Below, piece by piece: positions 12,390-40,840 of a stretch of DNA of 54,631 bases; the stretch's first letter is position 1, and every line of letters starts with the position of its first letter. The translations under genes and the position numbers were made by a program. The notes below the pieces were generated by a model. The model was not told the origin of the DNA. It searched no databases and worked only from the letters and a program-made list of their open reading frames with translations. This stretch comes from an uncultured Clostridia bacterium (GTDB lineage Bacteria > Bacillota > Clostridia > Oscillospirales > Oscillospiraceae), in contig CANSSG010000021.1 in assembly GCA_947649615.1 (NCBI GenBank), forward strand, positions 1 to 54,631, read 5' to 3'.

Positions 12390-13757
12390 ATGGAGACATG
12401 TGACCTGCTGCTGGGCGGCAGCTATCTTCTGGCAATGGACGATGGAGATACCCGTATACGCAATGGCGCTGTGGCAGTCCGCGGCGGCAGGATTTTGGAG
12501 GCCGGAAGCTTTGAGAGGCTGAAGAAGGCCTATGCGCCGGCGGAGACCATATGGCATGAGGATTCCGTCATCATGCCCGGCCTGGTGGATGCCCACACCC
12601 ATGAGACGCTGACGCGGGGGCTGCATGAGGACTTGCCGCTGATGCGCTGGCTGGAGGAGGTCTGTTATCCTATTGAAGGGCAGTATTGCCCGGAGGACCT
12701 CTATGCCGCCGCCCTGATGACCCAGGCGGAACTGATTCGCGGGGGTGTGACAACATTTATCGACATTTTCCGCTTTGCCGGCGAAGCCATCCGCGCCGTC
12801 CGGCAGACCGGGCTGCGGGGCATTTTTACGCCGCAGTTCTTTGATGCTACGGAAGATACCTTGGAGAGCATCGACCGCACGGTGGAACTGATTAAAACGT
12901 ATCACGGCACGGAGGACGGCAGGGTCAGCGTATGGTTCGGACCCCACGCGCCCTACAGTGTTTCACCGGAGCGGTACCGGCGGGCGGCGGAGCTTGCGGG
13001 GAAGCTGGGTGCCGGCATTCACACGCACCTGTGCGAGACAGAGGATGAGGTCAGGACGGTTCGCCAGCGGTATGGCATGGACCCGGTGGCTATGATGCAG
13101 GAAGCCGGCGTATTGGATGTGCCGTGTGTGCTGGCGCACTGCATCTATCTGACGGACAGCAACATCCGCCTTCTGGCGGAAAAGCGGGACACGGCGGCGC
13201 TGGTGTATAATCCCATCAGCAACCTGAAGCTGGCCGATGGCATCGCCAGGGTGCCGGAGTGGCTGAAGGCGGGCTGCACCGTCGGGCTGGGGACGGACTC
13301 CAACCTATCCAACAACGGTTTGGACATGTTCAATGAAATGCGCATTGGCGGGTATATGCAAAAGACGTTTAACCATGACGCAACCATCATGCCCTGCGGC
13401 CAAATGCTGCGGCTGGCTACCCGGGGCAGCGCGGCGGCGCTGAAGATGGAGGATAAAATCGGGTCCCTGGAAGCCGGGAAGTGCGCGGATGTGATTGCGG
13501 TAAGCTTGAAGAAGCCCCATCTTTGGCCTATTTACTACGAAAATCCCAGCAATATTGTGGAGCAGCTTGTCTATTCGGCAAGGGCTTCCGATGTAATCAC
13601 CACGGTCTGCAACGGACGTGTGCTGATGGATAACGGCGTCCTGCGGACGATTGACGAGGAGGAAGTCTTTGCTTTTGTGCAGGAGAGGGCCGCGTCACTG
13701 TATGCGAGAAGCTTTCCCGGCCGGTTTCCCTGTACGGAGAAGCCGCCGGCGGATTGA
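12390..13757 (+). CDS. Amidohydrolase 1, MtaD/TrzN-type aminohydrolase
   Basis: 455 residues. Metal and catalytic positions of the deaminase branch are present: DAHTHETLTRG (HxH), THLCETEDEV, LAHCIYL and GLGTDSNLSNN (Asp). This branch includes methylthioadenosine/S-adenosylhomocysteine deaminase, guanine and triazine aminohydrolases, which remove amino groups from N-heterocycles. The substrate is unknown. First gene of a run that continues with a nucleoside-type ABC importer, so the substrate may be a nucleoside or base. ATG 12390 follows GGCAGGCGG; the frame is open to 12318 but that overlaps the promoter. Confidence 0.82.
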   Translation: METCDLLLGGSYLLAMDDGDTRIRNGAVAVRGGRILEAGSFERLKKAYAPAETIWHEDSVIMPGLVDAHTHETLTRGLHEDLPLMRWLEEVCYPIEGQYCPEDLYAAALMTQAELIRGGVTTFIDIFRFAGEAIRAVRQTGLRGIFTPQFFDATEDTLESIDRTVELIKTYHGTEDGRVSVWFGPHAPYSVSPERYRRAAELAGKLGAGIHTHLCETEDEVRTVRQRYGMDPVAMMQEAGVLDVPCVLAHCIYLTDSNIRLLAEKRDTAALVYNPISNLKLADGIARVPEWLKAGCTVGLGTDSNLSNNGLDMFNEMRIGGYMQKTFNHDATIMPCGQMLRLATRGSAAALKMEDKIGSLEAGKCADVIAVSLKKPHLWPIYYENPSNIVEQLVYSARASDVITTVCNGRVLMDNGVLRTIDEEEVFAFVQERAASLYARSFPGRFPCTEKPPAD

Positions 13758-13834
13758 AAACCCGCGTATCCCGATAAGCGCGAGACAGTCCCGCCGGGAC
13801 GGAGAAGCCTGCGGGACGGAAAGGTACGGCAGGA

Positions 13835-14878
13835 ATGAAAATGAAGAAGCTATTTGCGATGCTTTTGGCGGCATGCCTGGTTCTGGGCATGCTGAGCGCC
13901 TGCGGGGAGAATGCAAAGCCAGGAGATGGTTCCGGCAGTGGAAACGCCGCCTGGAAAATGGCGATGATCACGGATACTGGCGGACTGGGCGACAACGGTT
14001 TTAACGATATGGCGTGGGCCGGTATGGAGATGGCCCGGGATGAACTGGGATTCGAGATAGGGTTGATTGAGTCCACAGAAGCGTCCCAGTACGCGGCGAA
14101 TATTGCCGCAGCCGCCAGCCAGGGGTACAATGTGATTTTATGTGTGGGATATTTGCTGGCGGATGCGCTGGCAGAAATGGCGCCCCAGTATCCGGATGTC
14201 AGCTTTATGATTATTGACGGTTCCGTGGAAGGGGATAACGTCTATTCCTTCGTATACAGCATGGAGGAAACCAGTTTTCTGGCCGGCGCGCTGGCAGCAT
14301 ACGTTCTGCCGGATTGCAATACCTTCGGCACGGTGGGCGGTATGGAAATCCCTGACGTGATTGCGTGGGCAAACGGATATCAGGCCGGCGTTCTGGCAGT
14401 GAAACCGGAGGCAAAGGTTCTGCGCTCCTATGTCGGCTCCTTCGTGGACCCCGGCATCGCCAAGGAACTGGCGCTGGCCCAATTCAACCAGGGGGCGGAG
14501 GTCGTTATGGAAATTTCCTCCGGCGGTGCGATCGGCGTCATTGAAGCCGCTAAGGAAGCGGGGAAGAAGTTTATCGCAACCGATAAATCCAAAGACAGCC
14601 AAGCGCCTGGATGCGAACTGACTGCCGCCCTGGCGGGCCGCGACATGGCGGTTTATAACGCCGCCAGGCAGCTAAAGGAGGGGACGGCGAAGCCCGGCAT
14701 CATGAATTTGACCATGAAGGACGGCGTGTTCGGGCTGCCGGATTATACGGAGGAACTGTACGGCAAGGATGCGGCGGACTTTATCGAAGGCCTAAAGCAG
14801 AAAATCCTCACCGGTGAGATCGAGGTCCCGCGCACAAATGAGGAGATGGACGCCTACATTCCCCCTGTGCTGAGCTGA
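13835..14878 (+). CDS. BMP/PnrA-type substrate-binding lipoprotein
   Basis: 347 residues. Lipoprotein signal with a lipobox LSAC (Cys23). The mature part follows the BMP family: ITDTGGLGDNGFNDMAW at the start, VGYLLADALAEMA, FMIIDGSV, EETSFLAGALAA, ATDKSKD. Members such as PnrA/TmpC bind purine nucleosides. It feeds the ATPase and two permeases that follow. A second in-frame ATG at 13841 is also possible. A hairpin after the gene could raise its level over the membrane parts. Confidence 0.9.
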   Translation: MKMKKLFAMLLAACLVLGMLSACGENAKPGDGSGSGNAAWKMAMITDTGGLGDNGFNDMAWAGMEMARDELGFEIGLIESTEASQYAANIAAAASQGYNVILCVGYLLADALAEMAPQYPDVSFMIIDGSVEGDNVYSFVYSMEETSFLAGALAAYVLPDCNTFGTVGGMEIPDVIAWANGYQAGVLAVKPEAKVLRSYVGSFVDPGIAKELALAQFNQGAEVVMEISSGGAIGVIEAAKEAGKKFIATDKSKDSQAPGCELTAALAGRDMAVYNAARQLKEGTAKPGIMNLTMKDGVFGLPDYTEELYGKDAADFIEGLKQKILTGEIEVPRTNEEMDAYIPPVLS

Positions 14879-14918
14879 CGGAGTCTGGCCGGCGGGCAAA
14901 ATATGAACTCTTTTGGGT

Positions 14919-14952
14919 GCGGCAGGCCCTTTGCGCGCAGGGGGCCTGCCGC
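14919..14952 (+). terminator. Hairpin between binding protein and ATPase genes
   Basis: GCGGCAGGCCC / GGGCCTGCCGC, 11-bp stem, 12-nt loop, then TGTTTT. It may be a leaky terminator or an mRNA 3' stabiliser giving more binding protein than transporter. Confidence 0.65.
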
Positions 14953-14973
14953 TGTTTTAGTACGGGAGGGAAT

Positions 14974-16536
14974 ATGAAAAATATCATTGAAATGCGGGGC
15001 ATAGTCAAACGGTTCGGGAATTTTACAGCGAATGACCATATTGACCTCTTGGTCCGGGAAGGGGAGATACATGCCCTCCTTGGAGAGAACGGCGCGGGAA
15101 AGAGCACGTTGATGAACATTCTCTACGGATTGTACCGCCAGGACGCCGGGGAGATTTACTGCAAGGGGAAGCTGGCACATATCCGGGAGCCGGGAGACGC
15201 CATGGCGCTGAATATCGGCATGGTTCATCAGCACTTCATGCTGGTGCAGCCCTTTACCGTGGCGGAAAATCTAATTCTGGGCAAGGAGCCGGTGCGGGGC
15301 TTGCGCCTGGATATGGCGGCAGCGAAGCGGCGCATCCGGCAGGTTTCCGAGGAGTACCATTTTGAGATTGACCCGGACGCGCGGGCCGCCGACATTTCGG
15401 TGGGGATGCAGCAGCGGGTTGAGATATTGAAAATTCTGCTCATGGGGGCGGAAATCCTGATTTTTGACGAGCCGACCGCCACGCTGACGCCCCAGGAAAT
15501 CCAGGACTTTTTTGAAATCTGCCGGGTGCTTCAGCGCCGGGGACACACCATCATCATCATCACCCACAAGCTCAAGGAAATCAGCCAGATCAGCGACCGG
15601 GTCACTGTGATTCGCAGCGGGAAAAATATCGCGACGGTGGAAACCAGCAAGGTAGACGAGGGCAGGCTGGCGGAGATGATGGTAGGACGCGCTGTGCGTC
15701 TCCGCCCATCCAAGGAGCGGCGGGAGGCCGGAGAAGTGGTGCTGGAAATGCGGGACGTCCACGCCAAAGACCCGCGCGGGCTTCCGGCGCTGCGGGGGCT
15801 GTCCCTGCAAGTCCGGTCCGGGGAGATTGTGGGCATTGCCGGCGTGGAGGGGAACGGCCAGTCGGAGATTGCTATGGTGCTCAAGGGGCTGGCGCCTTTT
15901 TCCAAGGGAGAGGTGCGCTATCAGGGGCGCAGTTACGGAAAGGGCGCAAGCGTCCAGCGGCTCATTGACAGCGGCGTGTCCCACATCCCGGAGGACCGGC
16001 AGAAAAGCGGGCTGGTGCTGGGGATGTCCATCCGGGAGAATATGATTCTTGGCATGGAGGACTGGGCGCGTTTCAAGTGGGGTCCGTTTCAGAAGCAAAA
16101 AGAAATTACGGCGTTTGCAGAGGAAATGCGTACGCGGTACGATATCCGCTGCACCGGCGTGGGCCAGGAGGCGCAGTCCCTTTCAGGCGGAAATCAGCAG
16201 AAGGTGATCCTGGCCCGGGAGATTGCGCGGGACCCGCAATTTATGATCGTATGCCAGCCTACGCGCGGGCTGGACGTGGGCGCGATTGAGTACATCCACG
16301 CGCAAATTCTGGAACAGCGGAAACGAGGGTGCGCGATTCTCCTGATCTCCTATGAACTGGACGAGATTATGGAACTGAGCGACCGGATTTTGACGATTTA
16401 CAACGGTGAAATTACGGCGGAATACCAGGCCGGGCAAGTCACGAGCGAGCAGATTGGGCTTGCGATGGCAGGATTCCGGGCAGCGGAGCGGACTGGGCAG
16501 GACGTGCCAGAGAAGAAAGCGGGGGACGCGGTGTGA
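14974..16536 (+). CDS. ABC transporter ATPase, duplicated type (nucleoside/sugar)
   Basis: 520 residues with two nucleotide-binding halves. The first has LGENGAGKST, a Q-loop in GMVHQHFML and EILIFDEPTA; its signature region is SVGMQQRVEI rather than LSGGQ. The second has IAGVEGNGQSE, a degenerate Walker A, and SLSGGNQQKVILARE with IVCQPTRGLDVGA, the pattern of RbsA/NupO-like ATPases. It powers the BMP-type importer. ATG 14974 follows GGGAGGG. It overlaps the next permease start (GTGA). Confidence 0.9.
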   Translation: MKNIIEMRGIVKRFGNFTANDHIDLLVREGEIHALLGENGAGKSTLMNILYGLYRQDAGEIYCKGKLAHIREPGDAMALNIGMVHQHFMLVQPFTVAENLILGKEPVRGLRLDMAAAKRRIRQVSEEYHFEIDPDARAADISVGMQQRVEILKILLMGAEILIFDEPTATLTPQEIQDFFEICRVLQRRGHTIIIITHKLKEISQISDRVTVIRSGKNIATVETSKVDEGRLAEMMVGRAVRLRPSKERREAGEVVLEMRDVHAKDPRGLPALRGLSLQVRSGEIVGIAGVEGNGQSEIAMVLKGLAPFSKGEVRYQGRSYGKGASVQRLIDSGVSHIPEDRQKSGLVLGMSIRENMILGMEDWARFKWGPFQKQKEITAFAEEMRTRYDIRCTGVGQEAQSLSGGNQQKVILAREIARDPQFMIVCQPTRGLDVGAIEYIHAQILEQRKRGCAILLISYELDEIMELSDRILTIYNGEITAEYQAGQVTSEQIGLAMAGFRAAERTGQDVPEKKAGDAV

Positions 16537-17642
16537 GAAATAAGGGGAAGTTAGTGTTTTTCGACGGGCAGAAGGCCCTTTTCCTGCTGTTGGACCCGGT
16601 TGTGTCTATTTTACTGGCGCTGGCTGCCGGGGCGGTGATGATCTGGGCGCTGGGGATCGACGCCGGGCTGGCATACCGGGCGCTGTGGCAGGGGGCTTTT
16701 GGCGATGCAAACGCACTGGCAAACACGCTTTTGTATGCCGTGCCGCTGATGTTTATGGCTTTCGCCTTTGCAGTAGCCTACCGGGCCGGGGTGTTTAACC
16801 TTGGCGCGGAGGGGCAGATGTATATTGGCGCGGTTCTTGCCGCCTGGGCTGGGTACGCCGTGACAGGGCTGGGACATACGGCGCACATCGTCCTTGTCCT
16901 TCTGGCGGGCGCGGTTGGCGGCGGGCTTTGGGGCGCGGCGCCGGCGGTGCTGAAGGCGAAGCGGGGCGTGAATGAGGTCATTACCTGCATTATGCTCAAT
17001 TATATCGCCATCAATGTGACCAATTATCTGGTCAACACCCGCGGGCCGCTGCGGGGCGGCAGTACGCTCCCGGCAACGCCGGTGATTCAGGATACCGCGC
17101 GGCTGAGCAAGTTGATAGCGGGGACCCGGCTGTCCAGCGGGATTCTGATTGCGGTGTTCTGCGGGATGGCTCTGTATATTTTCATGTGGAAGACCCGGGC
17201 GGGCTACAAGCTGCGGGCGGCGGGGCTGAACGCCCAGGCGGCGGAGTGCGGCGGAATCCCTACTACGCGCTGCGCGGTTACGACTATGATTATTGCCGGC
17301 GCGCTGGCGGGCATGGGGGGCGCCATCGAGATTGCCGGCGTCCACAGCCGGTTCTACGCGGAATTTTCCTCCGGCTACGGTTTTGAAGGCATCGCGGTCA
17401 GTATGCTGGGGGCGAACCATCCCTTTGGGATTCTGCTTTCCGCCGTCCTGTTCGGCGCGCTGAAAAACGGCGCGTCCGCCATGCAGATTCAAGCGGGCGC
17501 CAATGCCGAGCTGGTAAAGGTGCTGCAGGCGTTGGTGATTTTCTTTATCGCCTGCCGGTGGAGCATTGCGAAGCTGCTTGCATACAAATGGGGCGCGGCG
17601 GGCAAGGACGGCGGCGGTGAAGCCAGGGAGGAGGATGGATAA
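16533..17642 (+). CDS. ABC transporter permease 1 (BPD_transp_2 type)
   Basis: 369 residues, about nine membrane helices, with FNLGAEGQMYIGAVLAAW and RGVNEVITCIMLNYIA characteristic of the nucleoside-type permeases (NupP/YufP). The cytoplasmic coupling segment lies around RAAGLNAQAAECGGI. Start GTG 16533 overlaps the ATPase stop. The C-terminal tail is basic and acidic. Confidence 0.88.
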   Translation: MRNKGKLVFFDGQKALFLLLDPVVSILLALAAGAVMIWALGIDAGLAYRALWQGAFGDANALANTLLYAVPLMFMAFAFAVAYRAGVFNLGAEGQMYIGAVLAAWAGYAVTGLGHTAHIVLVLLAGAVGGGLWGAAPAVLKAKRGVNEVITCIMLNYIAINVTNYLVNTRGPLRGGSTLPATPVIQDTARLSKLIAGTRLSSGILIAVFCGMALYIFMWKTRAGYKLRAAGLNAQAAECGGIPTTRCAVTTMIIAGALAGMGGAIEIAGVHSRFYAEFSSGYGFEGIAVSMLGANHPFGILLSAVLFGALKNGASAMQIQAGANAELVKVLQALVIFFIACRWSIAKLLAYKWGAAGKDGGGEAREEDG

Positions 17643-18575
17643 ATGGATGTGTTGACGCAATTGCTGAACGGCAGCATGCTGGCGGCTACCTTCCGCATGG
17701 CAACGCCGTTGATACTGGGTGGAACCGGGGGCGTCTTTTCCGAGCGGGCGGGCATCATGAATCTTGGCATCGAGGGGGAAATGCTCGTAGGCGCCTGCGC
17801 GGCGGCAGTGGTGGGCATAGCCACCGGGAACGCATGGCTGGGCGTATTGGGCGCGCTGCTTTCCGGCGGGCTGATGGGGCTGCTTCACGCCTTCATCTGC
17901 ATCCGGTTCCACGCCAACCAGACGGTGGTGGGGACCGGGGTCAATATCCTTGCCACGGGCATCACGCCTCTGGTGCTGCAAACCTTGTATGACAGCGGGG
18001 CGGCGTCTCCTGCAACGCCGACGCTGGAAGCCTGGTCTGTTCCCTTCCTGCGGGATATACCATTCCTTGGCGCTGTGCTGGGAACCCACAGCCCGCTGAC
18101 CTATCTGGCGCTGCTGCTGGTGCCGGTCTCGTCATTTGTGCTCTTCCGGACGCGGTTCGGCCTGCGGGTCCGGGCGGTGGGGGAGCACCCGAGGGCGGCG
18201 GACACTATGGGCGTCCATGTCTATAGGCATCAGTACATATCGGTGGCGCTGTGCGGGATGCTGGCCGGGCTTGGGGGCGCGTACCTGTCGCTGTGCCAGG
18301 TTTCCATGTTTGTCAAGGGGATGACCAACGGACGCGGCTTTATGGCTATGGCTGCGATGATATTTGGGAAATGGAACCCGTGGGGGGTGCTGCTGGCGGC
18401 GCTGCTGTTTGGCTGCTCAGACGCCCTGCAAATGGTCTTGCAGGCGGGCGGGTCCCAGATTCCTACGGACTTCCTCCTCTGCGCCCCGTATCTTCTGACG
18501 GTGGCGGCGCTGGCCTGCTTTGTTGGCAAGGCGGTCAGCCCCAGGCAGGTTGGGAAGCCCTATATAAAAGATTGA
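17643..18575 (+). CDS. ABC transporter permease 2 (BPD_transp_2 type)
   Basis: 310 residues, eight to nine helices, with FSERAGIMNLGIEGEMLVGA, the hallmark of the second permease in nucleoside-type importers, and VRAVGEHPRAADTMGV as the coupling segment. Starts immediately after the first permease with GAGGAGG upstream. Together with the previous three genes it makes a complete importer. Confidence 0.9.
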   Translation: MDVLTQLLNGSMLAATFRMATPLILGGTGGVFSERAGIMNLGIEGEMLVGACAAAVVGIATGNAWLGVLGALLSGGLMGLLHAFICIRFHANQTVVGTGVNILATGITPLVLQTLYDSGAASPATPTLEAWSVPFLRDIPFLGAVLGTHSPLTYLALLLVPVSSFVLFRTRFGLRVRAVGEHPRAADTMGVHVYRHQYISVALCGMLAGLGGAYLSLCQVSMFVKGMTNGRGFMAMAAMIFGKWNPWGVLLAALLFGCSDALQMVLQAGGSQIPTDFLLCAPYLLTVAALACFVGKAVSPRQVGKPYIKD

Positions 18576-18606: not shown

Positions 18607-19971
18607 ATGAAACGGGACTCTATTTTGATTAAAAACGGCGTCATTTTCACCATGAATGCCAAAAAAGAGATTTTTCAAGGGGACATCTTGATTGAAAACG
18701 GCGTGATTACGGAAATCGGGACGACGCGGGGCTGCGCCGCCCATGTAGTGGACGCTGCGGGCAAGCTGGTGCTTCCCGGTTTCATCCAGACCCATGTACA
18801 CTTATGCCAGGCGTTGTTCCGGGGGCTGGCGGACGATGTGGATGTGGTGGATTGGCTTCGCGGCCGGATTTGGCCGCTGGAGTCCGCCCATGACGGCGCA
18901 TCCATCCACGCGTCCGCGCGGCTGGCGGCGGCGGAAATGCTTGCGGGCGGCACGACGGCGGCGCTGACGATGGAAACCGCCCTCCATACAGATGCGGTTT
19001 TCCAAGCGGTTGAGGAAACGGGGCTGCGGGTATTTACGGGAAACGCCATGATGGATGTGGTGGAACCGGGTACGGAAATGCGGGCGCTGGATACGGAAGC
19101 CAGCTTTCGGGAGACCCGGCGGCTGTTTGACTGCTGGCATGGAAAGGACCAGGGGCGGATTCGCTTCGCGGTCATGCCGAGAGGAGCGCGGAACTGCTCT
19201 GGTGAATTGGTGGAGCGTTCCCGGCGGTTCGCCCTGGACAACGGGCTGCTCATGCACACCCATGTTTCCGAAAACGGCCCGCTCTCCCGACGCTTGAAGC
19301 AGGAGACGGGGCTGACGGATATGGAATTGCTGGAACGGCAGCAGGCCGCTGCGGAGCGCCTGGTGATCGCCCACGGGGTATGGCTGAGTGAGGGAGATAT
19401 GGAGATCGTCCGCCGCCGGGGCGTAAAAATCGCCCACTGCCCTTCGGCGAATCTGAAATTGGCTTCCGGCTTCGCCAAAATCCCGGAGCTGCTGGAACGC
19501 GGCGTTACGGTTGGCCTTGGGGCCGACGGTGCGCCCTGCAACAATAATATGGATATGCTGACGGAGGTGCGGCTGGCCGCTTTGATCCATAAGCCCCGCT
19601 GCGGCCCCACCGCCCTGCCCGCCTATCGGATGCTGGAGATGGCGACCATCGAGGGGGCGCGGTGCCTGGGGATTGAGAAGGAAACCGGCAGCCTGGAGGT
19701 GGGAAAGCGGGGAGACGTCATCCTCCTGCGGCATGACGGCCTCCATTGCAGCCCCATGGCGGGGGCGCCGCTGTCCTCAAAAATTGTGTACAGTCTCAAG
19801 GGGACGGACGTAGATACGACCATAGTGGATGGGCGGATTCTCTATCAGGACCGGCGGTTCACTGCGCTGGACGAGAAGAAAATCAAAGAAGAAAGCAGCC
19901 GGCAGCTTGAAAATGTGCTCAAGCGCACGGCCTTCGGGGAGGACCTGCTGCGGGCAGGGACGCTGCAATAA
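18607..19971 (+). CDS. Amidohydrolase 2, 5'-deoxyadenosine/8-oxoguanine-deaminase-like
   Basis: 454 residues. Metal-site motifs: QTHVHLCQALFRG, LMHTHVSEN, VIAHGVWLSE and GLGADGAPCNNN. The THVHLCQ...FRGLADD pattern recalls 5'-deoxyadenosine and related purine deaminases; a guanine-type deaminase is possible. It is co-transcribed with the importer above, so imported material is probably deaminated. ATG 18607 has AAAGGCGG upstream; a GTG at 18583 is in frame but lacks a site. Confidence 0.82.
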   Translation: MKRDSILIKNGVIFTMNAKKEIFQGDILIENGVITEIGTTRGCAAHVVDAAGKLVLPGFIQTHVHLCQALFRGLADDVDVVDWLRGRIWPLESAHDGASIHASARLAAAEMLAGGTTAALTMETALHTDAVFQAVEETGLRVFTGNAMMDVVEPGTEMRALDTEASFRETRRLFDCWHGKDQGRIRFAVMPRGARNCSGELVERSRRFALDNGLLMHTHVSENGPLSRRLKQETGLTDMELLERQQAAAERLVIAHGVWLSEGDMEIVRRRGVKIAHCPSANLKLASGFAKIPELLERGVTVGLGADGAPCNNNMDMLTEVRLAALIHKPRCGPTALPAYRMLEMATIEGARCLGIEKETGSLEVGKRGDVILLRHDGLHCSPMAGAPLSSKIVYSLKGTDVDTTIVDGRILYQDRRFTALDEKKIKEESSRQLENVLKRTAFGEDLLRAGTLQ

Positions 19972-20749: not shown

Positions 20750-20790
20750 GCAGGGGCCGTTCAGAGGACATAAAGAAAGGGAAATTGGTT

Positions 20791-21558: not shown

Positions 21559-21569
21559 GGGCGGGGATG

Positions 21570-23299: not shown

Positions 23300-23349
23300 C
23301 GGGGTATACAAAATTGATGGTCAACTTATGATTTAATTATGGTTATTTG

Positions 23350-23378
23350 TTGACAAGTAATTGCGCATATGATATGAT
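23350..23378 (+). promoter_or_regulatory. Strong promoter of the hydantoinase/ECF run
   Basis: TTGACA (23350-23355), 17-bp spacer, TATGAT (23373-23378). The 70-nt leader contains a small hairpin (GTTCCC / GGGGAC). Marks a new transcription unit after the KduD-like gene. Confidence 0.8.
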
Positions 23379-23448
23379 GCTATTGTGCGTTCCCAAACAA
23401 ACCTGGGGACGTGAGAGAAAACGATATGCGGGAAAGGAGTACGTTGGG

Positions 23449-26906: not shown

Positions 26907-26908
26907 AG

Positions 26909-28570: not shown

Positions 28571-28585
28571 TCCGGCTCTATTAGT

Positions 28586-28619
28586 GCGCGGGCGCCGACG
28601 GAATGATGCGCCCGGGCGC
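28586..28619 (+). terminator. GC-rich hairpin between ecfT and the S-component gene
   Basis: GCGC-GGGCGC pairs with GCGCCC-gg-GCGC. No T-run follows, so termination is partial at best; it may set the ratio of module to S component. Confidence 0.4.
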
Positions 28620-28652
28620 TATTGAGACAATATTTTAGGAGGAAAGAGGCTT

Positions 28653-32882: not shown

Positions 32883-34112
32883 ATGGGTACATACGAACCA
32901 AAGTTTAACGGCGCGTACATTGGCGACGGCAAATTGCTGACAAACGAAGAATTGTGTCAAATTTTGTCCGATGTGGTGAAATGCGACAGCACCTTTGGCC
33001 GGGAAGGCGACTGCGGCAGGCTTCTGACCAAGATTGCGGCGGAAAACGGGCTGATGGTTGAGATCACGCCCACCAGCGCAGAAGACCGGTTCAATGTCAT
33101 GATCACCGTAGGCGCGGACAGCTTTTTGGAGAAGAAGAACGGCCTTCTGCTCCATGGACACTATGACACGGTTCCCGTGCTGGACATGCCGGACCCCTAC
33201 AATACCGAGGTCGTGGGCAACAAAATGTGCGGCCGCGGCATCGTGGATCAAAAAAGCGGCCTGGTTGCGGCCTTATGCGCGGCAATAGCCGTGAAACGCA
33301 CCGGAAGGACGCTGAAAAAGCCGCTGTGCATTGCCTGCGTGGTAGACGAGGAATCTGAGCATCGTGGCAGCTACGCCCTGGCGCAGACAGGCGTAAAAGC
33401 CGATTGGGCCATTGTGACGGAGCCGACGAACGGAAACTGCGAGTTTGGCTGCAAAGGCACGACGCCCATCCGCATCACCGTAAAAGGGCTTACCGCCCAT
33501 GCCAGCAACCCCTGGATTGGCGTCAACGCGATTGAAAAAGCGATGCCCATTTTAGAGGGCCTGTTTGCCATGAAGTTCCCCGAGGTGGACCTGGGCGAGT
33601 TCGGCAAATACCAGGGTACCATCTGCGTCAGCAAGCTGGACGCGGGGACAGCGTACAACAACGTTCCCGGTGAAGCCGTGATCTGGATGGACCGCCGGAC
33701 GGTGCCGGGAGAGGATTCCCAGCTTGCCCTGGGGCAAGTGCGGGACGTGATTGCGGAAGCAAAGAAAAAAATCCCCGGCCTTCAGGCGGAAGCGGAAATC
33801 GCCCGCCCGGACTGGCACTGGCCTGAAATCCGCGCCCGGGGCCTGAACCCAACCTGTACGCCGGCGGATTGTGAGCTTTACAACGTTCTGAACCGCGCGG
33901 CCTGCCGCACCGGCCTGCCGGATGTGCCAAAGAAATTCTGCAACGGCTACAACGACATGGACTTTCTGGTCAATGATTTAGGCATCCCCACCTTGGTATA
34001 CGGCTCGGGTGACGGCAGCATGGCCCACACCGCCCATGAGGAAGTCGATGTGGATGATGTATGCCGGGTTGCTGAAGTATTCTGCCATATGATTGAAGAA
34101 CTTTGCATGTAA
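32883..34112 (+). CDS. M20 metallo-amidohydrolase 2
   Basis: 409 residues. LLLHGHYDTVP, CGRGIVDQKSG, VVDEESEHRG (base Glu), VTEPTNG and AHTAHEEVDVDD supply the usual two-metal site. A ~40-residue N-terminal extension precedes the catalytic domain. Related to ArgE/DapE and N-carbamoyl amidohydrolases. Between an SsnA-like and a PreA-like gene, a plausible substrate is an N-carbamoyl amino acid from a ring opening. Purine-rich ribosome site AAGGAAGAAGGAAAA. Only distantly like the first M20 enzyme, so not a simple duplicate. Confidence 0.85.
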   Translation: MGTYEPKFNGAYIGDGKLLTNEELCQILSDVVKCDSTFGREGDCGRLLTKIAAENGLMVEITPTSAEDRFNVMITVGADSFLEKKNGLLLHGHYDTVPVLDMPDPYNTEVVGNKMCGRGIVDQKSGLVAALCAAIAVKRTGRTLKKPLCIACVVDEESEHRGSYALAQTGVKADWAIVTEPTNGNCEFGCKGTTPIRITVKGLTAHASNPWIGVNAIEKAMPILEGLFAMKFPEVDLGEFGKYQGTICVSKLDAGTAYNNVPGEAVIWMDRRTVPGEDSQLALGQVRDVIAEAKKKIPGLQAEAEIARPDWHWPEIRARGLNPTCTPADCELYNVLNRAACRTGLPDVPKKFCNGYNDMDFLVNDLGIPTLVYGSGDGSMAHTAHEEVDVDDVCRVAEVFCHMIEELCM

Positions 34113-34128: not shown

Positions 34129-35214
34129 ATGACCCACGAAGTAGATTTGTCGGTAAAAGTATCCGGCGTTATTTTTGAAAATCCCCTGATCCTGTCCGAA
34201 GGCCCCCTGACTGGCGATGCGCGGCTGATTGAGCGCGCCGCGTCCCACAAGCTGGGCGGCATCTGCACGAAAAGCATCCGCCAGGATGCCGCCGTATCGG
34301 CAAATCCCTACATGATTGCCGCCAACGGCGGGCTGATCAACGCGGATTGGACAAGCATTGGGTTTGACGCATGGCTGAAGGAGCTGGACAAGCTGCACCT
34401 CAGCAAGCCGCTGATGACCAATGTAGGCACCAATTATACGCCGCCCCAGAAGGCTGCCGAGCTGGCGGACGTACTGGAACAGCACGGCGCAACCTTTGTC
34501 AGCTTTTCCGACTACGAGCCTGAAAACCTGGTGGAGACTGTCCGGTACGCCCGAAAGAACGTGAAGGTGCCGATTATGGTGAAGCTGCCCCCCTTTGTCA
34601 AAAACATCGGGGATCTCTGCCGCCGCCTGGAGGATGCCGGCGTCAGCATGATTGCCGCCATGGACGCGGTAGGACCCGCTATGGATATCGACCCCGAGAC
34701 CCGCCGGCCTGTATTGGGCTGCAACGGCGCGTTCGGCTACCTGTCCGCCGCACCGATTTTCCCGCTGACACTGGCGTACATCGCGGAGATTGCCGCCAAC
34801 GTGTCTGTACCCGTCCTGGGCGTAGGCGGCGTTTCCAAGACAGAGGACGTTATCAAGATGATTATGGCGGGCGCCACCTGCGTGGGCATGGTGGGTACGC
34901 CGGTTCTGAAGGGCTTGGAGGTGTTCGACAAAATCGAATCCGGCCTGCGTACCTGGATGGCGGAACACAATGTACGCTCCTTCGATGAAATCCGGGGCTG
35001 CGCCCTGCCCTACATCCACGGCGCCGAGCGTACGGACTTACGGGCCAGGGTGGACGAAAGCCTGTGCGTCGGCTGCGGCCTGTGTACCAAGTCCTGCTAT
35101 TGCGGCGCGCTGTCCATGGCGGACGGCAAAGCCCAGGTCAATTATGAGTATTGCAGCGGATGCGGCGTATGCCAGACGGTTTGCCCCAAGCGCGCGGTTC
35201 GCGTAGGCAAGTGA
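34129..35214 (+). CDS. preA: PreA-like dihydropyrimidine/dihydroorotate dehydrogenase with two 4Fe-4S clusters
   Basis: 361 residues. FMN barrel of the dihydroorotate dehydrogenase class (FENPLILSEGPLTGD, MVKLPPFVKNI, VLGVGGVSKTEDVIKMIMAG, GTPVLKG) fused to a C-terminal ferredoxin domain with CVGCGLCTKSC and CSGCGVCQTVC (residues about 312-352). This is PreA architecture; PreA reduces uracil/thymine using electrons from PreT. No preT or other NAD(P)H subunit lies anywhere in the window, so electrons may come from ferredoxin or another protein. ATG 34129 has AGGAGAG upstream. The gene symbol reflects family, not proven substrate. Confidence 0.8.
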   Translation: MTHEVDLSVKVSGVIFENPLILSEGPLTGDARLIERAASHKLGGICTKSIRQDAAVSANPYMIAANGGLINADWTSIGFDAWLKELDKLHLSKPLMTNVGTNYTPPQKAAELADVLEQHGATFVSFSDYEPENLVETVRYARKNVKVPIMVKLPPFVKNIGDLCRRLEDAGVSMIAAMDAVGPAMDIDPETRRPVLGCNGAFGYLSAAPIFPLTLAYIAEIAANVSVPVLGVGGVSKTEDVIKMIMAGATCVGMVGTPVLKGLEVFDKIESGLRTWMAEHNVRSFDEIRGCALPYIHGAERTDLRARVDESLCVGCGLCTKSCYCGALSMADGKAQVNYEYCSGCGVCQTVCPKRAVRVGK

Positions 35215-35248: not shown

Positions 35249-36652
35249 ATGGATTTACTGATAAAAAACGGCACGGTCATTACGGTGAACCAGACCCGGG
35301 ACGTTGTAAAGGCAGACGTTGCCATCGACCAGGGCCGGATTGTCAAGGTAGGCGATTGCACCGGCATAGCGGCGGACAAGGTGATTGACGCCATCGGCTG
35401 CGCGGTAATGCCGGGAATGATCAACACCCACACCCACATTTACCAGGCGCTCATTGAGGGCATCGGCTACGACATGCACTTTGAGCCATGGAACTGGCGG
35501 TTTTTGTTTCCTATCGTCAGCCGGATGACGCCCGAACACGCCTATGTCAGTGCGCAGGTGGCGGCGCTGGAAATGATTAAGAGCGGTACGACCACGGTCT
35601 GCGACCACTGGTACATGCACACCTACTTCGACAACGTACGCCGTCTGACAACCGCTCTGGACGAGAGCGGAATGCGCTCCTGCATCGTTTACGGCCTGCT
35701 GGACCGTTCCTTCGCGGGGGAGAGCACCGGCGGAAACGAGATGACCATGGTTCACACCAAGGAAGATTTGATGGCCGATGTAGAGAAGTTCACCGCCCAA
35801 TGGCACAATGTCCGCCGGACTACAGTGGCCCTTGGCGTAGGCACTACCCAGGACGCTTCTCCTGAGCTGCTCAAGCTGTCCCAGGAATACTGCCTGGCCA
35901 ACGGCCTGCAAAACAACTTCCATGTAGCGGGGTGGAGCGACCTGATTGCCAACTGCTACCGGGAATACCGGATGCGGGATGTGGAGTACCTGGCAAAAAA
36001 CGGCTACACAGGACCCAACATGGTCTACGTCCACGCCGTATGGCTGACGCCGGAGGAAGTCCGCATCGCGGCGGACACGGGGACGAAGATCGCCCACTGC
36101 CCGGTGGCGAACGCCCAGCTTGCCTACGGCGTCGCCCCCGTCAGCGAAATGCTGGCCCAGGGCATGGCGGTGGGGCTTGGCACGGACGGCGCGGCCAGCT
36201 ATACCTACGACATGTTCGAGGTCATGCGGCTGGCAGGCTACCTGCAAAAGCAGAAGCATCTGTCCGCCGACCTCCTCACAGCGGAGCAGGCCATTGAAAT
36301 GGCTACCATCAACGGCGCGCGGGTACTGAACATGGAGAATCAGCTCGGCTCTCTTGAGGAAGGGAAAAAGGCGGACGTCATTCTGGTGGACATGAACCGC
36401 CCCCACCTGCTTCCCGTCAACCGTTACACCCCGAAGCTGGTCTACAGCGCCAATGGAGGCGACGTGCGCACCACCATTATTGACGGCAAAATCGTAATGG
36501 AAGACTGGGTGGTCAAGACCATGAACGAGGAAGCCGTCCTGCGGGACGCCGTACGCTGTGCCGGCGAACTGACGGCGGGCGCGTCCAACGACGATACAGC
36601 CAAGCTGCTGAACGCTCCCTGGGGCAGGACGCGGCCATATTGGAGAAGCTGA
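35249..36652 (+). CDS. Amidohydrolase 4, TrzN/MtaD-type aminohydrolase
   Basis: 467 residues. NTHTHIYQALIEG, NNFHVAGWSD, VYVHAVWLTP and GLGTDGAASY give the metal site. Longer loop after residue 150 than the other three. Acts on an unknown N-heterocycle amine or similar C-X bond. Followed after 9 bp by the GH1 glycosidase. The minus strand here is also open for over 1,300 codons, but codon use and homology favour the plus strand. Confidence 0.83.
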   Translation: MDLLIKNGTVITVNQTRDVVKADVAIDQGRIVKVGDCTGIAADKVIDAIGCAVMPGMINTHTHIYQALIEGIGYDMHFEPWNWRFLFPIVSRMTPEHAYVSAQVAALEMIKSGTTTVCDHWYMHTYFDNVRRLTTALDESGMRSCIVYGLLDRSFAGESTGGNEMTMVHTKEDLMADVEKFTAQWHNVRRTTVALGVGTTQDASPELLKLSQEYCLANGLQNNFHVAGWSDLIANCYREYRMRDVEYLAKNGYTGPNMVYVHAVWLTPEEVRIAADTGTKIAHCPVANAQLAYGVAPVSEMLAQGMAVGLGTDGAASYTYDMFEVMRLAGYLQKQKHLSADLLTAEQAIEMATINGARVLNMENQLGSLEEGKKADVILVDMNRPHLLPVNRYTPKLVYSANGGDVRTTIIDGKIVMEDWVVKTMNEEAVLRDAVRCAGELTAGASNDDTAKLLNAPWGRTRPYWRS

Positions 36653-36661
36653 GGAAATTTT

Positions 36662-38017
36662 ATGAAAAAGATTACATTCCCGGAAAATTTCATCTGGGGG
36701 ATTGGCAACGGGGCGTATCAGTCCGAGGGGGCCTGGAACGAGGACGGTAAGGGCGAGTCCATCTGGGACCGCTACGGACATATCCCCGGCAACGTATGGA
36801 ACGGCGAGAATGGGGACGTTACCACGGATTTCTACCACCGCTACAAGGAAGATATCGCCCTGCTGGCCAGCCTGGGCATCCGCCACTTCCGCATGTCCAT
36901 TGCCTGGACAAGGATTCTTCCGGACGGCAGGGGCGCGGTCAATCCGAAGGGGATCGCCTTCTACCACAATGTGTTCGCGGAGCTGGAAAAGTACGGCATA
37001 GAACCTATGGTGACCCTCTACATGTGGGACTTGCCCCAGAAATTGCAAGACGCAGGCGGCTGGGCCAACCGCGAGACGGCGGACTGCTTCGCGCAATATG
37101 CACGGATACTCTTTCAGGAGTACGGCAAAGAGGTATCCACATGGGTCACCTTCGATGAGCCGTTCTGCTGCGCATTTATTGGCAACTACCTGGGAACCTA
37201 CGCGCCTGGTTTGCGTGATTTCAGCACCGCCCTGCAAGCCAGCTACCACATGCTGCTGGCCCACGGCAAGGCGGCCCGTGCCTGCCATGAGATGCTCCCC
37301 GGGGCCAAAATCGGCATCGCGCTGAATCTCTCCGACTGCAAACCCGCCACGGCCCGCCCGGAGGACGCCGGAGCGGCCCGCCGCGCGGACGGCTACCGGA
37401 ACCGCTGGTTCCTGGACCCGCTCTACAAGGGATATTTTCCGGAGGATATGCTGCGGCTGTACCGGGAAAAGGGCGTGGCCTTGCCGGAAATCCGGGAGGA
37501 GGATCTGGAAATCATGTCGGAGCGGCAGGATTTTTTGGGCCTGAACTACTATTCCCCCCATTTCTTTGTCAGCGATGAAAAAAACTGGCCGGTAGGCGCG
37601 GCGTCCGTAAAAGTAGGGCATCCCGTCAATGACATCGGTTGGGAAATCGTGCCGGAGGCGCTGGGCAATATCCTGCGCCGCGTCAAAGAGGACTACGGCG
37701 ATATTGAAATCCAGATTACAGAAAACGGCTCCTGCCAGACAGACCTTGTCAACCGGGAACACCGGGTTGTAGATGACGGCCGCATCGACTATATGCACCG
37801 CCATCTGGCGGTGCTGCGGGAGGCAATCGGCAGCGGCGTCCGGGTGACCGCCTACTACGCCTTTTGCTTTACGGACAATGTGGAATGGGCGCTGGGCTTT
37901 TCCAAGCGGTTCGGTCTCGTGTACGTTGACTTCGGTACGCAGGAGCGCATTGTTAAGGACAGCGGACGGTGGTACGCCGGCGTTGCGGCGGAAAACGGCT
38001 TTGAGACGGCGCTGTAA
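36662..38017 (+). CDS. GH1 beta-glucosidase-type glycosidase with TFDEP motif
   Basis: 451 residues, normal GH1 length, no signal peptide, so cytoplasmic. The barrel starts FPENFIWGIGNGAYQSEGAW. The acid/base motif near residue 165 reads TFDEP instead of the conserved TFNEP (Glu kept, neighbouring Asn changed to Asp). The nucleophile is in ITENG near 354. No 6-phospho-glycosidase signature was recognised and no PTS lies nearby, so free glycosides are likely. It sits between an aminohydrolase and a molybdenum hydroxylase, 9 bp and 27 bp away, implying glycosides of the same compounds. Starts with GAGGAAATTTT then ATG. Confidence 0.88.
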   Translation: MKKITFPENFIWGIGNGAYQSEGAWNEDGKGESIWDRYGHIPGNVWNGENGDVTTDFYHRYKEDIALLASLGIRHFRMSIAWTRILPDGRGAVNPKGIAFYHNVFAELEKYGIEPMVTLYMWDLPQKLQDAGGWANRETADCFAQYARILFQEYGKEVSTWVTFDEPFCCAFIGNYLGTYAPGLRDFSTALQASYHMLLAHGKAARACHEMLPGAKIGIALNLSDCKPATARPEDAGAARRADGYRNRWFLDPLYKGYFPEDMLRLYREKGVALPEIREEDLEIMSERQDFLGLNYYSPHFFVSDEKNWPVGAASVKVGHPVNDIGWEIVPEALGNILRRVKEDYGDIEIQITENGSCQTDLVNREHRVVDDGRIDYMHRHLAVLREAIGSGVRVTAYYAFCFTDNVEWALGFSKRFGLVYVDFGTQERIVKDSGRWYAGVAAENGFETAL

Positions 38018-38044
38018 AAGCGGCTGGCGGATAAGGAGGCCAAT

Positions 38045-40840
38045 ATGGCGAATGTGATGCAACTGAAAGTAAACGGCAAAACCGTGACCGCCCAGCGCCC
38101 GGAGCAGACGCTTCTGTCCTTCCTGCGCGACGGCCTGGGGCTGGTGGGCGCAAAGGATGGATGCAGCCGGGGCCAGTGCGGCGCGTGTACGGTGATTGTA
38201 AACGGCCAATCGGTCCGGAGCTGCCTGAAAAAGATGAAGGATTTGGATGGCGCGGAGGTAGAGACCATCGAGGGCCTGGAGAAAGACGGCGTCCTCCATC
38301 CCCTCCAGCAGGCGTTTCTGAAGCTGAGCGCCTACCAATGCGGCTTCTGCACCCCTGGAATGATCATGCGGGCCAAATGGCTGTTGGACAACAACCCCGC
38401 CCCCACTGTAGAGGAAGTGCGCCAAGGGCTGAAGCCGAACATCTGCCGCTGCACCGGCTATAAGAAGATAGTGGAAGCGGTATTGCTGGCGGCCAGCGTC
38501 CTCAGGGGGGAGACGGCCATCAACCTCTATGAGGATGACGGCGCAATGGGTTCCCGCTGCGTCCGCACGGACGGCTACGCCAAGGTGACTGGCAAGCCGG
38601 TCTATACCGATGACTACAAGCTTGTCAAGCCTTTGCAGGGTAAGTTTGTCTGGCCCGCTTATCCCCACGCCAAGGTCCTGTCGGTAGACATTTCGGAAGC
38701 CCGCAGGATGCCCGGCGTGGCGGCGGTGGCGGTCTATGACGACATTCCGGGAAGAAAGCTGTTCGGCCAGGGCTATTTTCCGCAGCAGCCAATCATCGCA
38801 AAGGACATCGTCCGCTTTGTAGGCGACCCGGTGGCCGTGGTATACGCCGAGACGGAGGAGGAAGCCCTGGCGGCAGTCCAGAAGGTTCATGTGGAATATG
38901 AGCCGCTGCCGGTCCTGACGGACATGGATGAGGCGATGAAGCCGGATGCCATGCGTATTTACCCGGAGTACGAGGACGGAAACATCTGCTCCCACGACCA
39001 CACCCACAAGGGCAGCGTAGAGCGCGGCTTTGCCATCTCCGACGTCATTGTGGAGGGCGAATATGAGACAGCCCCCATCGACCACGCCTACATGGAGCCG
39101 GACGCCGCATTGGCCCACTACGATGAAGACGGCAGGCTGACAGTCCATGGCTCCGTGCAGAACCCCCTCGGCCTGCGCCGGGAACTGGCGGAATGCCTGG
39201 GGCTGGATGAGGAAAAGGTACGGGTGCTGAACCATCCCAACGGCGGTGCGTTCGGCGGGCGGGAGGAGCCGTCCGTACACATCCAGGCCGCGCTGGGTAC
39301 CTTGATGACTGGCCGTCCGGTCCGGATTGTCTTTACCCGCGAGGAGGTCAATTTCTTCACCACCAAACGCCATGGGATGCGCCTGCGCTATAAGCTGGGC
39401 GCGGCAAAGGACGGAAAAATTCAGGCAATCCAAGTGCAGACTGTGGGGGACACCGGCGCATACGCGTCATCGGGCGCCTTCGTGCTGTTCCGGGCCTGTG
39501 TGTTCGGCGCGGGCTGCTACGCGATTCCCAACGCCTGCATGGACACCTACGCGGTCTATACCAATAACACCACCGCAGGCTCCATGCGGGGCTTTGGCAG
39601 CACCCAGCCGGCGGTTCCGCTGGAATCCCTGGTGGACCAGTTGGCAGAAAAGCTGCAAATAGACCCCTTTGAGATCCGCAGAATCAACGCCCTTGCCCCC
39701 GGCAAGCAGACAATCACAGGCCATGTGATCGACTATTCGTGCGGCTATGTGGAGTGTCTCAACGAGGTGGAAGCGCGGCTGAAGCGGGATGGGCTGCCCG
39801 CGCCCTCCGGCCCCCACAAGAAGGTAGGCTGGGGCGTGGCGTCCAGCATGAAAAACGTAGGCCTTGGTTCCGGCTGTCCGGACAATGCCTGGGCGCAGAT
39901 GCGCCTGACGAAGGATGGGCGGTTTGAGCTGATGGCGGGCGGCGTGGAGTGCGGCCAGGGGCATGACACCGTCGTGGTGCAGATTGCCGCCGAAGCCTTG
40001 GGCGTATCCCCGCAAAATATCGCCATCCTTCCCGTAGACAGCAGCTACACTATGGAAGCGGGCATCACGACTGCGTCCCGCCAGACCTTTGTTTCCGGGA
40101 ACGCCTGCAAGGGCGTGGCGTCTGTGTTCCGCCAGAGCCTTCTGCGGCAGGCTTCGTCCCTGTGCGGCATTTCTGAGGGGCTGCTTGATTTGGATAAGAA
40201 CGGGATTCACAGCGCCGGCAAGGGCCATTCTTTTACTATGACATTCCGCGAATTGGCGGAGAAGGTGGAACAGGCTGGGGCGGAGGTCTACGAAAAATTC
40301 TTCTACAACGCGCCGGAAACCCATCCGTACCATGCCTGCTCCGATAATTTTGACAATAAGATGGTGGAAAACCGCCTGCATTTTGCGTACTGTTTTTGCG
40401 CGCAGTGCGTGGTGGTGGAGGTAGACGAGCTGACAGGCGAGATAACCGTCCTGCGGGTATACGCCGCCAACGACGTAGGCCGGGCGGTGAACCCGGCGCT
40501 GGTAGAGGGGCAGATTGAGGGCGGTGTGGCCATGGGTATTGGCATGGCGCTGAGCGAACAGTTTGTGCAGAAGGACGCCCTTGTGGTTACCAAAGACCTT
40601 GCCAGCCTGCGCGTCCCCCATTCCACAGACGTTCCCATGCACATTGAGCCGGTGATGGTGGAGGAAGGCCATCCCTACGGGCCATTTGGCGCGAAGGGGA
40701 TGGGAGAACTGCCGCTGAACGCCACCGCCCCGGCCATACTTAACGCGGTATACAATGCGGTAGGCGTCCGGATCAACCGGCTGCCGGTTGACCGCAAAAA
40801 ACTAGCGGAGGAGATAAAAAGGAAACAGGCGGAGAAATAG
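38045..40840 (+). CDS. xdhD: XdhD-like molybdenum hydroxylase, fused 2Fe-2S and Mo domains
   Basis: 931 residues. Residues 1-150 are a two-cluster iron-sulfur domain (CSRGQCGAC near 39-46; CGFC and CRCTGYKK near 100-140). From about 170 the molybdopterin domain follows (GGAFGGREEP, AGSMRGFGSTQ) up to GAKGMGEL, whose Glu (about residue 887) is the catalytic base. Such enzymes hydroxylate purines or other N-heterocycles with water. The fused layout is that of XdhD (YgfN); the FAD/NAD subunit found in xanthine dehydrogenases is absent here, as is an XdhC-type maturation factor. Last gene of the operon. Substrate not determined. Confidence 0.85.
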   Translation: MANVMQLKVNGKTVTAQRPEQTLLSFLRDGLGLVGAKDGCSRGQCGACTVIVNGQSVRSCLKKMKDLDGAEVETIEGLEKDGVLHPLQQAFLKLSAYQCGFCTPGMIMRAKWLLDNNPAPTVEEVRQGLKPNICRCTGYKKIVEAVLLAASVLRGETAINLYEDDGAMGSRCVRTDGYAKVTGKPVYTDDYKLVKPLQGKFVWPAYPHAKVLSVDISEARRMPGVAAVAVYDDIPGRKLFGQGYFPQQPIIAKDIVRFVGDPVAVVYAETEEEALAAVQKVHVEYEPLPVLTDMDEAMKPDAMRIYPEYEDGNICSHDHTHKGSVERGFAISDVIVEGEYETAPIDHAYMEPDAALAHYDEDGRLTVHGSVQNPLGLRRELAECLGLDEEKVRVLNHPNGGAFGGREEPSVHIQAALGTLMTGRPVRIVFTREEVNFFTTKRHGMRLRYKLGAAKDGKIQAIQVQTVGDTGAYASSGAFVLFRACVFGAGCYAIPNACMDTYAVYTNNTTAGSMRGFGSTQPAVPLESLVDQLAEKLQIDPFEIRRINALAPGKQTITGHVIDYSCGYVECLNEVEARLKRDGLPAPSGPHKKVGWGVASSMKNVGLGSGCPDNAWAQMRLTKDGRFELMAGGVECGQGHDTVVVQIAAEALGVSPQNIAILPVDSSYTMEAGITTASRQTFVSGNACKGVASVFRQSLLRQASSLCGISEGLLDLDKNGIHSAGKGHSFTMTFRELAEKVEQAGAEVYEKFFYNAPETHPYHACSDNFDNKMVENRLHFAYCFCAQCVVVEVDELTGEITVLRVYAANDVGRAVNPALVEGQIEGGVAMGIGMALSEQFVQKDALVVTKDLASLRVPHSTDVPMHIEPVMVEEGHPYGPFGAKGMGELPLNATAPAILNAVYNAVGVRINRLPVDRKKLAEEIKRKQAEK

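Follow-up and report, generated by a model that had tools for sequence, protein, structure and literature searches.

The window analysed here is the whole of contig CANSSG010000021.1 (C21, 54,631 bases) from an uncultured Clostridia bacterium of the family Oscillospiraceae, whose genome comprises 2.65 Mb in 70 contigs and is 95.8% complete. Positions 12390-40840 hold an island of 24 open reading frames (ORFs), arranged as two forward runs (12390-30266 and 31485-40840) and one reverse gene. On balance, we favour the reading that this island encodes a paralogous sister version of the anaerobic pathway for reductive urate breakdown, working on a purine-type ring other than or besides yanthine. 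The observations behind it are the gene content, the recurrence of the set in two distant genomes, the clade positions of its enzymes, and a YgeX gene beside the copy in a Dethiobacter metagenome-assembled genome (MAG).

According to PMC12507026, the biochemical description of the reductive urate route dates from 2025, and SsnA has been its marker in genomes. In E. coli and C. difficile, urate is converted to yanthine by XdhD, and the ring is dearomatised by YgfK or by UacX, which stands in for YgfK in C. difficile and has yanthine as its substrate; SsnA and HyuA then open the rings, YgeW or UacY together with YgeY remove the ureido groups, and YgeX leads to pyruvate (PMC12507026). According to PMC12990295, the order of ureido cleavage is disputed.

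Gene families were assigned to the island by Pfam (24 of 24 ORFs) and NCBIfam (18 of 24). Judging from direction and spacing, the forward runs would correspond to two operons, A and B. The genes of operon B (31485-40840, +) are given below with their identities to the Dethiobacter stretch (L011) and to G569, a genome of another family in the same phylum.

31485..32840, +: AH3, aminohydrolase placed beside SsnA; 66-68% to the G569 and L011 copies
32883..34112, +: M20b, ArgE/DapE-like; 50% in L011, 43% in G569
34129..35214, +: UacX-like reductase, DHO_dh with two 4Fe-4S motifs
35249..36652, +: AH4, aminohydrolase with an altered metal site; 60-61% in L011 and G569
36662..38017, +: GH1 beta-glucosidase (540 bits versus a cut-off of 478.5); not matched in the runs of L011 and G569
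38045..40840, +: single-chain Mo hydroxylase; the three island copies form one clade of a family shared with SsnA clusters

Relation to the reductive urate pathway

SsnA matches occurred in 71 genomes, with 70 of 299 over the cut-off, and 20 stretches around SsnA were compared, that of the window's own genome included. The labels UacX-type (L078, L088, L092), PydA-type (L090), UacY-like (L078) and aminotransferase (L075) were assigned in them from neighbourhood, length or motif.

According to the model scores, the name SsnA, used in the original prediction, fits none of the four aminohydrolases: all are below the cut-off, the best being AH3 (284 versus 444 and 263 versus 455.5). In a tree with 12 SsnA proteins from the 20 stretches, the AH3 trio, the SsnA proteins and a paralogue pair from G569 and its family relative G385 occupy one side of a branch with 100/99 support, on which AH3 and SsnA form separate clades, each supported at 100/100. 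The models and the separate clades together rule out AH3 as SsnA. Their motifs differ as well (SHQ..SN in AH3, mostly HNPESN in SsnA), and other relatives of AH3 show at most 34% identity among the matches listed.

Regarding the reductase, the island trio forms a 100/100 clade that has the same domains as the UacX-type proteins, at 31-33% identity. In a tree built without YgfK, the trio groups with L012, the G385 type and three UacX-type proteins, while one PydA type stands apart. The loop reads FSDYEPEN versus ECSISFPHG in PydA-type L090, and the UacX-type proteins likewise lack the PydA-type loop; compared with these, the island copies have FSDYE.EN versus LELSTHY. We take the SxxFPHG-like stretch to be the PydA substrate loop. 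The original prediction called this protein PreA, a name that its NCBIfam score (141 versus 335 bits) does not carry; by its sequence it resembles UacX and not a dihydropyrimidine dehydrogenase. Since the reductase is neither PreA nor PydA by model, loop or tree, the proposed hybrid of purine and pyrimidine breakdown is rejected.

As for the Mo hydroxylase, the trio is a clade with 100/98 support and belongs to the same family as 4 of the 11 single-chain Mo enzymes of SsnA clusters in the tree, from which split-subunit enzymes of such clusters were left out. The enzyme had been named XdhD; it is, however, below the cut-offs of TIGR03311 and TIGR03313 (352 versus 1102 for the latter, which we take to be the XdhD model), and its best model is Se_dep_XDH (670 versus 830). 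Equivalents of bovine Glu802, Arg880 and Phe914 are kept, as in 12 other purine-cluster or own-genome enzymes aligned, and the equivalent of Phe1009 is Leu, with Leu, Ile or Val in the 12 others. All four numbers refer to residues of bovine xanthine oxidase.

M20a, the YgeY-like hydrolase of operon A, is 64% identical to M20 enzymes in the SsnA clusters L078 and L082. Its earlier name, YgeY, is upheld by PRK13004 (488 versus 321) and not by TIGR03526 (257 versus 321.5). The hydantoinase-fold enzyme (HYD) has its metal-site residues and scores below the D-hydantoinase cut-off (333 versus 393 bits); the HyuA-like protein of L078 reaches 611. At least 4 of the 20 stretches (L075, L076, L080 and L084) have an importer of the island's BMP type next to SsnA, which ties this importer type to purine clusters. 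On the Dethiobacter island contig, YgeX (653 versus 532 bits) is immediately upstream of a sigma-54 activator, the first gene of L011 and the only one that separates YgeX from the island, and SsnA was not found at E<=1e-100 in that MAG, the completeness of which is not given.

Among the genes reported as missing, ygfK is indeed absent from the window; the genome, however, has YgfK (1283 versus 835 bits) on contig C1, side by side with a true SsnA (549 versus 455.5 bits; L074, G000:C1:8000-27900). The absence of ygeW and preT agrees with the lack of a carbamoyltransferase or PreT match in the island's 24 ORFs, to which the search for PreT was confined. With respect to UacY, no ORF among the same 24 was judged to be of D-aminoacylase type. 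G569 has SsnA with a YgfK-like ORF at the stretch edge, and a second module combines an AH3-like paralogue and YgeY- and HyuA-like genes with another UacX-type reductase. Because both G569 and the window's genome have SsnA too, mere replacement of one system by the other is disfavoured.

Further loci of this kind were seen in these genomes and in relatives of G569. In the window's genome, L043 (G000:C35:3000-22000) holds a Mo enzyme that comes closest to XdhA (below cut-off), an aminohydrolase with 36% identity to AH1 of G569, and an amidohydrolase with PRK09061 as best model (173 versus 340), which is also the best model of the UacY-like L078 protein (199). G569 contains three parallel reductive-purine-like modules at C1:512000-531900 (L128), 540000-595000 (L129-L131) and 2507115-2536749 (L034, L035), the second with several Mo enzymes. 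The supercluster of purine type in G385 (C1:106586-135992; L039, L040) has a distant UacX-like reductase, an M20 enzyme (YgeY model, 425 versus 321) and three aminohydrolases, besides two or more large Mo subunits and three binding proteins of BMP type. In three genomes of the family of G569 (L075, L080 and L128), an aminotransferase-like ORF and a relative of the 2-hydroxyacid dehydrogenase lie side by side next to SsnA; this pair may be an alternative exit to YgeX.

Recurrence and acquisition of the gene set

The neighbourhood is conserved but rare, in far-apart bacteria. A contig scan for the reductase, based on short exact peptide patterns and hence a weak guide to true rarity, gave 20 loci, of which L011 has 58% identity and the others at most 34%. 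The L011 contig carries counterparts of AH3 (68%), AH4 (60%), the reductase (58%), the 2-hydroxyacid dehydrogenase (55%), the Mo enzyme (51%), M20b (50%), M20a (45%) and the importer (41-58%), a hydantoinase-like gene (29%), and also aldehyde:ferredoxin oxidoreductase, ferredoxin-like and DHDPS-family genes.

In 398 genomes of the phylum, the reductase profile gave, besides the window's own, one match at E<=1e-70, which is G569. Of the 24 island genes, the run in that genome (C1:2507115-2534190) has 14, with identities of 43-66% and with each of the four aminohydrolases represented, along with two aldehyde oxidoreductases and DHDPS-, IlvD- and IlvC-type genes. Eleven of the 24 genes are clustered in both L011 and G569, namely AH3, AH4, M20a, M20b, the reductase, the Mo enzyme, the 2-hydroxyacid dehydrogenase and four importer genes. 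Among 249 genomes around the Dethiobacter one, AH3 gave a single match at E<=1e-120, itself; these wide profile searches scored the first 4 candidates per genome for the reductase and the first 6 for AH3. The reductase is present in 2 of the 18 genomes of G569's family, one of them having the more distant type (G385). For the Mo enzyme, 200 genomes of the window's family gave 3 matches at E<=1e-150, its own and two at 37%. The idea of an undescribed N-heterocycle gene set thus survives as a coherent set that recurs as a unit in two distant genomes, though not as a hybrid with pyrimidine breakdown.

Conservation in related genomes, which the original prediction proposed to look for, is found outside the genus and, to judge by AH3, not within it, where AH3 occurs in 1 of 25 genomes, the window's own. 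It was not found in the 24 congeners at E<=1e-60; many of these are incomplete, and 9 of the 25 genomes combine a completeness of 90% or more with a contamination of 5% or less. The right-flank genes (44429-47591, with VTC-domain and CotH genes) show 55-73% identity and keep their order in 6 of 6 congener stretches, which were picked for holding the CotH gene (as do 11 of the 25 genomes) and one of which, G851, is a 7.8-kb contig. The sole island match in these stretches is a 2-hydroxyacid dehydrogenase with 31% identity, in G855. Taken together, the kept flank and the genus count of AH3 point to gain by the window's species or loss in its congeners, and the set was probably acquired. A wrongly binned contig is judged unlikely, as the right-flank genes match those of congeners. 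Plasmid spread of AH3 is unsupported: 677 plasmid records match, all below 60%, with the best listed at 31%. Near the left contig end (297-953) lies an Apea-like HEPN domain protein, possibly a defence gene.

Gene content and boundaries of the island

Pfam and NCBIfam bear out the families named in the original prediction, that is, four TRZ/ATZ-type aminohydrolases, a hydantoinase-fold enzyme, two M20 enzymes, GH1, a DHO_dh and 4Fe-4S reductase and a single-chain Mo hydroxylase, as well as two importers, a BMP-type ABC and a four-gene ECF one (its S component only below Pfam cut-offs for ECF models). The earlier list omitted the three SDRs and the 2-hydroxyacid dehydrogenase (19988-23299), UNK312 and the reverse AP_endonuc_2 gene, and counted three forward runs where two are seen. 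Operon A (12390-30266, +) and the reverse gene that follows it are as follows.

12390..13757, +: AH1, TRZ/ATZ aminohydrolase; 55% to AH1 of G569; start picked from sequence
13835..14878, +: BMP/PnrA-type substrate-binding protein; 41% in L011, 46% in G569
14917..16536, +: ABC ATPase of the BMP importer (Pfam); counterparts in L011 and G569
16533..17642, +: importer permease 1 (Pfam); counterparts in L011 and G569
17643..18575, +: importer permease 2 (Pfam); counterparts in L011 and G569
18607..19971, +: AH2, aminohydrolase (5'-deoxyadenosine deaminase model, 508 versus a cut-off of 522); start picked from sequence
19988..20749, +: SDR1 (Pfam, NCBIfam); start picked from sequence
20785..21558, +: SDR2; 60% to the SDR of the G569 run
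21555..22508, +: 2-hydroxyacid dehydrogenase, glyoxylate reductase-like (below cut-off); 55% in L011, 56% in G569
22529..23299, +: SDR3, KduD-like (below cut-off)
23347..24633, +: M20a, YgeY-like hydrolase; likely start 23449
24652..26022, +: HYD, hydantoinase-fold cyclic amidohydrolase; HxH, K, H, H and D kept
26046..29225, +: ECF importer, two ATPases, T and S components
29367..30266, +: UNK312, 299 aa, family-less, with no match in Pfam or NCBIfam and no convincing one in PDB
30334..31182, -: AP_endonuc_2 TIM-barrel gene, divergent from operon B

For UNK312, comparison with solved structures gave nothing below E 0.12. The active sites, described earlier as intact, are so only in part: AH1 and AH3 have the usual histidines and HYD has its metal-site residues, whereas AH2 and AH4 lack the usual third metal-ligand histidine. 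A relative of AH2 is present within the SsnA cluster L085. The substitutions of AH2 and AH4 are also found in the G569 copies, those of AH4 in L011 and the Arg of AH2 in the L085 relative, so they look like fixed subfamily features rather than decay.

The boundaries of the island are marked by the following sites and neighbouring genes.

9969..12166, +: run of KDPG/KHG-aldolase, KDG-kinase-like and RpiB genes, with its own promoter-like site at 9883-9911
12310..12338, +: sigma-70-like promoter TTGACT-17-TATCAT of operon A; weak, 10/12 matches
40856..40890, +: hairpin 3' of operon B with two perfect 11-base arms, a possible terminator
41006..41809, +: DeoR-type regulator, with its own promoter-like site at 40947-40974

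Promoter-like sites numbered 7 versus 5.0 expected in the left scan and 18 versus 7.5 in the right one. Together with the hairpin, they suggest that the two neighbours of the island, the left-hand KDPG-aldolase run and the right-hand DeoR gene, form units of their own. The KDPG genes as part of operon A were dropped, given that this run and operon A each have their own promoter-like site, and a functional tie of the 9969..12166 run to the island is something we only infer.

Sugar-acid-type genes, as non-homologous enzymes, flank or interleave all three copies of the island. In the window (6765-12166), an enolase-superfamily (MR/MLE) gene and an IclR regulator on the reverse strand are followed by the forward KDPG/KHG aldolase, KDG-kinase-like and RpiB genes. 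G569 and L011 have DHDPS- and IlvD-type genes; the Dethiobacter contig also has a gene weakly like galactarate dehydratase (260 versus 731 bits) and, after M20a, a relative of IlvD (48%) that is truncated where the contig stops. IlvD and IlvC of G569 may be housekeeping genes, because they pass branched-chain biosynthesis models. Directly after the island run of G569, L035:16286-18750 holds a tartronate semialdehyde reductase (480 versus 397 bits) and an aldehyde dehydrogenase. Sugar-acid genes might form the sugar branch of a nucleoside or glycoside pathway, or might lie beside the island by chance.

Proposed pathway and alternative explanations

In the simplest joint reading, the island would perform the ring work of a purine pathway ending, at least in Dethiobacter, in 2,3-diaminopropionate. 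The BMP-type importer, joined in the window by the ECF importer, would import a purine, nucleoside or glycoside, the exocyclic groups of which would be altered, most simply by deamination, by one or more of AH1, AH2 and AH4. The Mo hydroxylase would add or remove a ring oxygen, and the UacX-like enzyme, fed by reduced ferredoxin, would dearomatise the ring. AH3 would then open the pyrimidine ring in the role of SsnA, HYD would act in that of HyuA, and M20b and M20a would strip the two ureido groups, M20b in place of YgeW or UacY. In Dethiobacter, YgeX would convert 2,3-diaminopropionate to pyruvate; in the window's organism, with no YgeX found, the C3 unit would exit otherwise, possibly via the 2-hydroxyacid dehydrogenase. 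Organisms with both systems presumably use them on different rings.

Several points weigh against a paralogous purine pathway. Every reaction and the substrate class are ones that we infer. YgeX, listed as missing in the original prediction, was indeed not found in the 95.8% complete genome (E<=0.001) and is below cut-off in G569. The nearest relation of AH3, the G385/G569 paralogue pair, has only 84/62 support, and the grouping of the reductase with UacX over PydA has 82/89, with long branches and unsure details. Among solved structures, the Mo enzyme best matches an aldehyde oxidoreductase (430 bits, against 309 for xanthine dehydrogenase), which has the Arg880 equivalent in common with it and lacks that of Glu802. 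In place of the beta-5 histidine, AH2 has Arg and AH4 has Gly, and AH4 is also without the beta-6 HxxE glutamate; we assume both to be metal-site positions of this aminohydrolase family. The window's M20a groups with the M20 enzymes of L078 and L082, while the other two island copies are a sister pair, and due to this differing ancestry the set was not wholly inherited as one block. The runs of L011 and G569 contain nothing that corresponds to GH1, the ECF importer, SDR3, UNK312 or the reverse gene, and no separate counterpart of SDR1; HYD is missing from the G569 run and is matched at 29% in L011. The genomes found carrying the set number three.

A more elaborate version, possible but doubtful, has a nucleoside-like compound taken apart whole, with the AH3/UacX-like pair opening a non-yanthine purine ring and sugar-acid enzymes burning the sugar and supplying reduced ferredoxin. 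These enzymes would be the IlvD-type dehydratase, DHDPS-type aldolase and aldehyde:ferredoxin oxidoreductase in the distant copies, and the KDPG aldolase, KDG kinase and SDRs in the window. We regard it as unlikely that the island duplicates the urate/yanthine pathway in a divergent but isofunctional form, or that it supplies the lower half (HYD, M20a and M20b) which the SsnA-YgfK pair on C1 lacks. A role of this kind would agree with the 20-kb C1 stretch around this pair, which shows no M20- or HYD-like ORF, with the lack of a YgeX match in the genome, with the closeness of M20a to M20 enzymes of SsnA clusters, and with a Dethiobacter copy that has YgeX and no SsnA found. G569, however, holds an SsnA cluster and a second UacX-type module besides the island, which makes a third isofunctional set less likely, and the motif differences of AH3 from SsnA and of the reductase from the UacX-type proteins also speak against it.

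A non-purine N-heterocycle or its glucoside (a vicine-type pyrimidine glucoside, a pterin or a cytokinin), from which GH1 would free glucose for use by the SDR and KDPG genes, appears quite improbable. The GH1 beta-glucosidase over its cut-off inside operon B and the sugar-acid-type genes beside all three copies, via non-homologous enzymes, fit such a substrate, but GH1 is limited to the window copy, and YgeX beside the Dethiobacter copy would point to 2,3-diaminopropionate as the skeleton, which a purine would give. Very improbable, finally, is that there is no single pathway and that unrelated catabolic genes accreted in a plastic region. While the lack of AH3 in the other 24 congeners, the window-only genes interspersed among island genes and the different ancestry of M20a would suit accretion, 14 of the 24 genes recur in one co-directional run of another family at the identities given above for G569.

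The favoured reading of a paralogous purine pathway suggests that the same chemistry has sister versions, invisible to an SsnA search, in widely separate bacteria. AH3 and the reductase make up an enzyme pair with a directly testable substrate, and if this substrate is another purine, the use of purine nitrogen and carbon by anaerobes would be extended.

Comparison with known systems

No description of this cluster was found in the open-access literature, with supplementary files and most subscription journals outside the search, and the same literature gave nothing on topic for Dethiobacter and purines. PMC12507026 and PMC12990295 mention the xanthinase pathway of purinolytic clostridia. This pathway is an anaerobic purine fermentation that includes formiminoglycine-handling enzymes. 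Anaerobic purine fermentation is also what is proposed for the island, among whose 24 ORFs no formiminotransferase-type Pfam match was seen; the xanthinase gene itself was not searched for. With the reductive pyrimidine pathway (PreTA/PydA, dihydropyrimidinase and ureido hydrolase) the island shares the reductase and hydantoinase fold families. In contrast to it, the island reductase is without the PydA-type loop and well below the PreA cut-off, and PreT is not among the island ORFs. To our knowledge, the Mo enzyme and the aminohydrolases play no part in that pathway.

Family X1, according to Barba et al. 2013 (PMC4016543), is related to DHODase/DHPDase and linked to hyuA, ygeY, ssnA and xdh genes. 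It is probably the UacX family; the island reductase itself was compared with the proteins of the loci described above. As for the E. coli-type urate pathway (XdhD/YgfM, YgfK, SsnA, HyuA, YgeW, YgeY and YgeX; PMC12507026), the enzyme types are the same and the window's genome has the SsnA-YgfK pair elsewhere, but the island is without YgfK and a carbamoyltransferase and has no FAD subunit ORF beside the Mo enzyme. With the C. difficile type (XdhD-UacX-SsnA-HyuA-UacY-YgeY-YgeX, PMC12507026) the island has in common the Mo hydroxylase, the ferredoxin-type DHO_dh reductase, and the aminohydrolase, hydantoinase and M20 types, and YgeX is shared via the neighbour of the Dethiobacter copy. It differs in that AH3 is not SsnA, the reductase stands outside the UacX-type clade and neither UacY nor YgeW is among the island ORFs, and it adds a second M20 enzyme, three aminohydrolases, the BMP and ECF importers, and the SDR and 2-hydroxyacid dehydrogenase genes.

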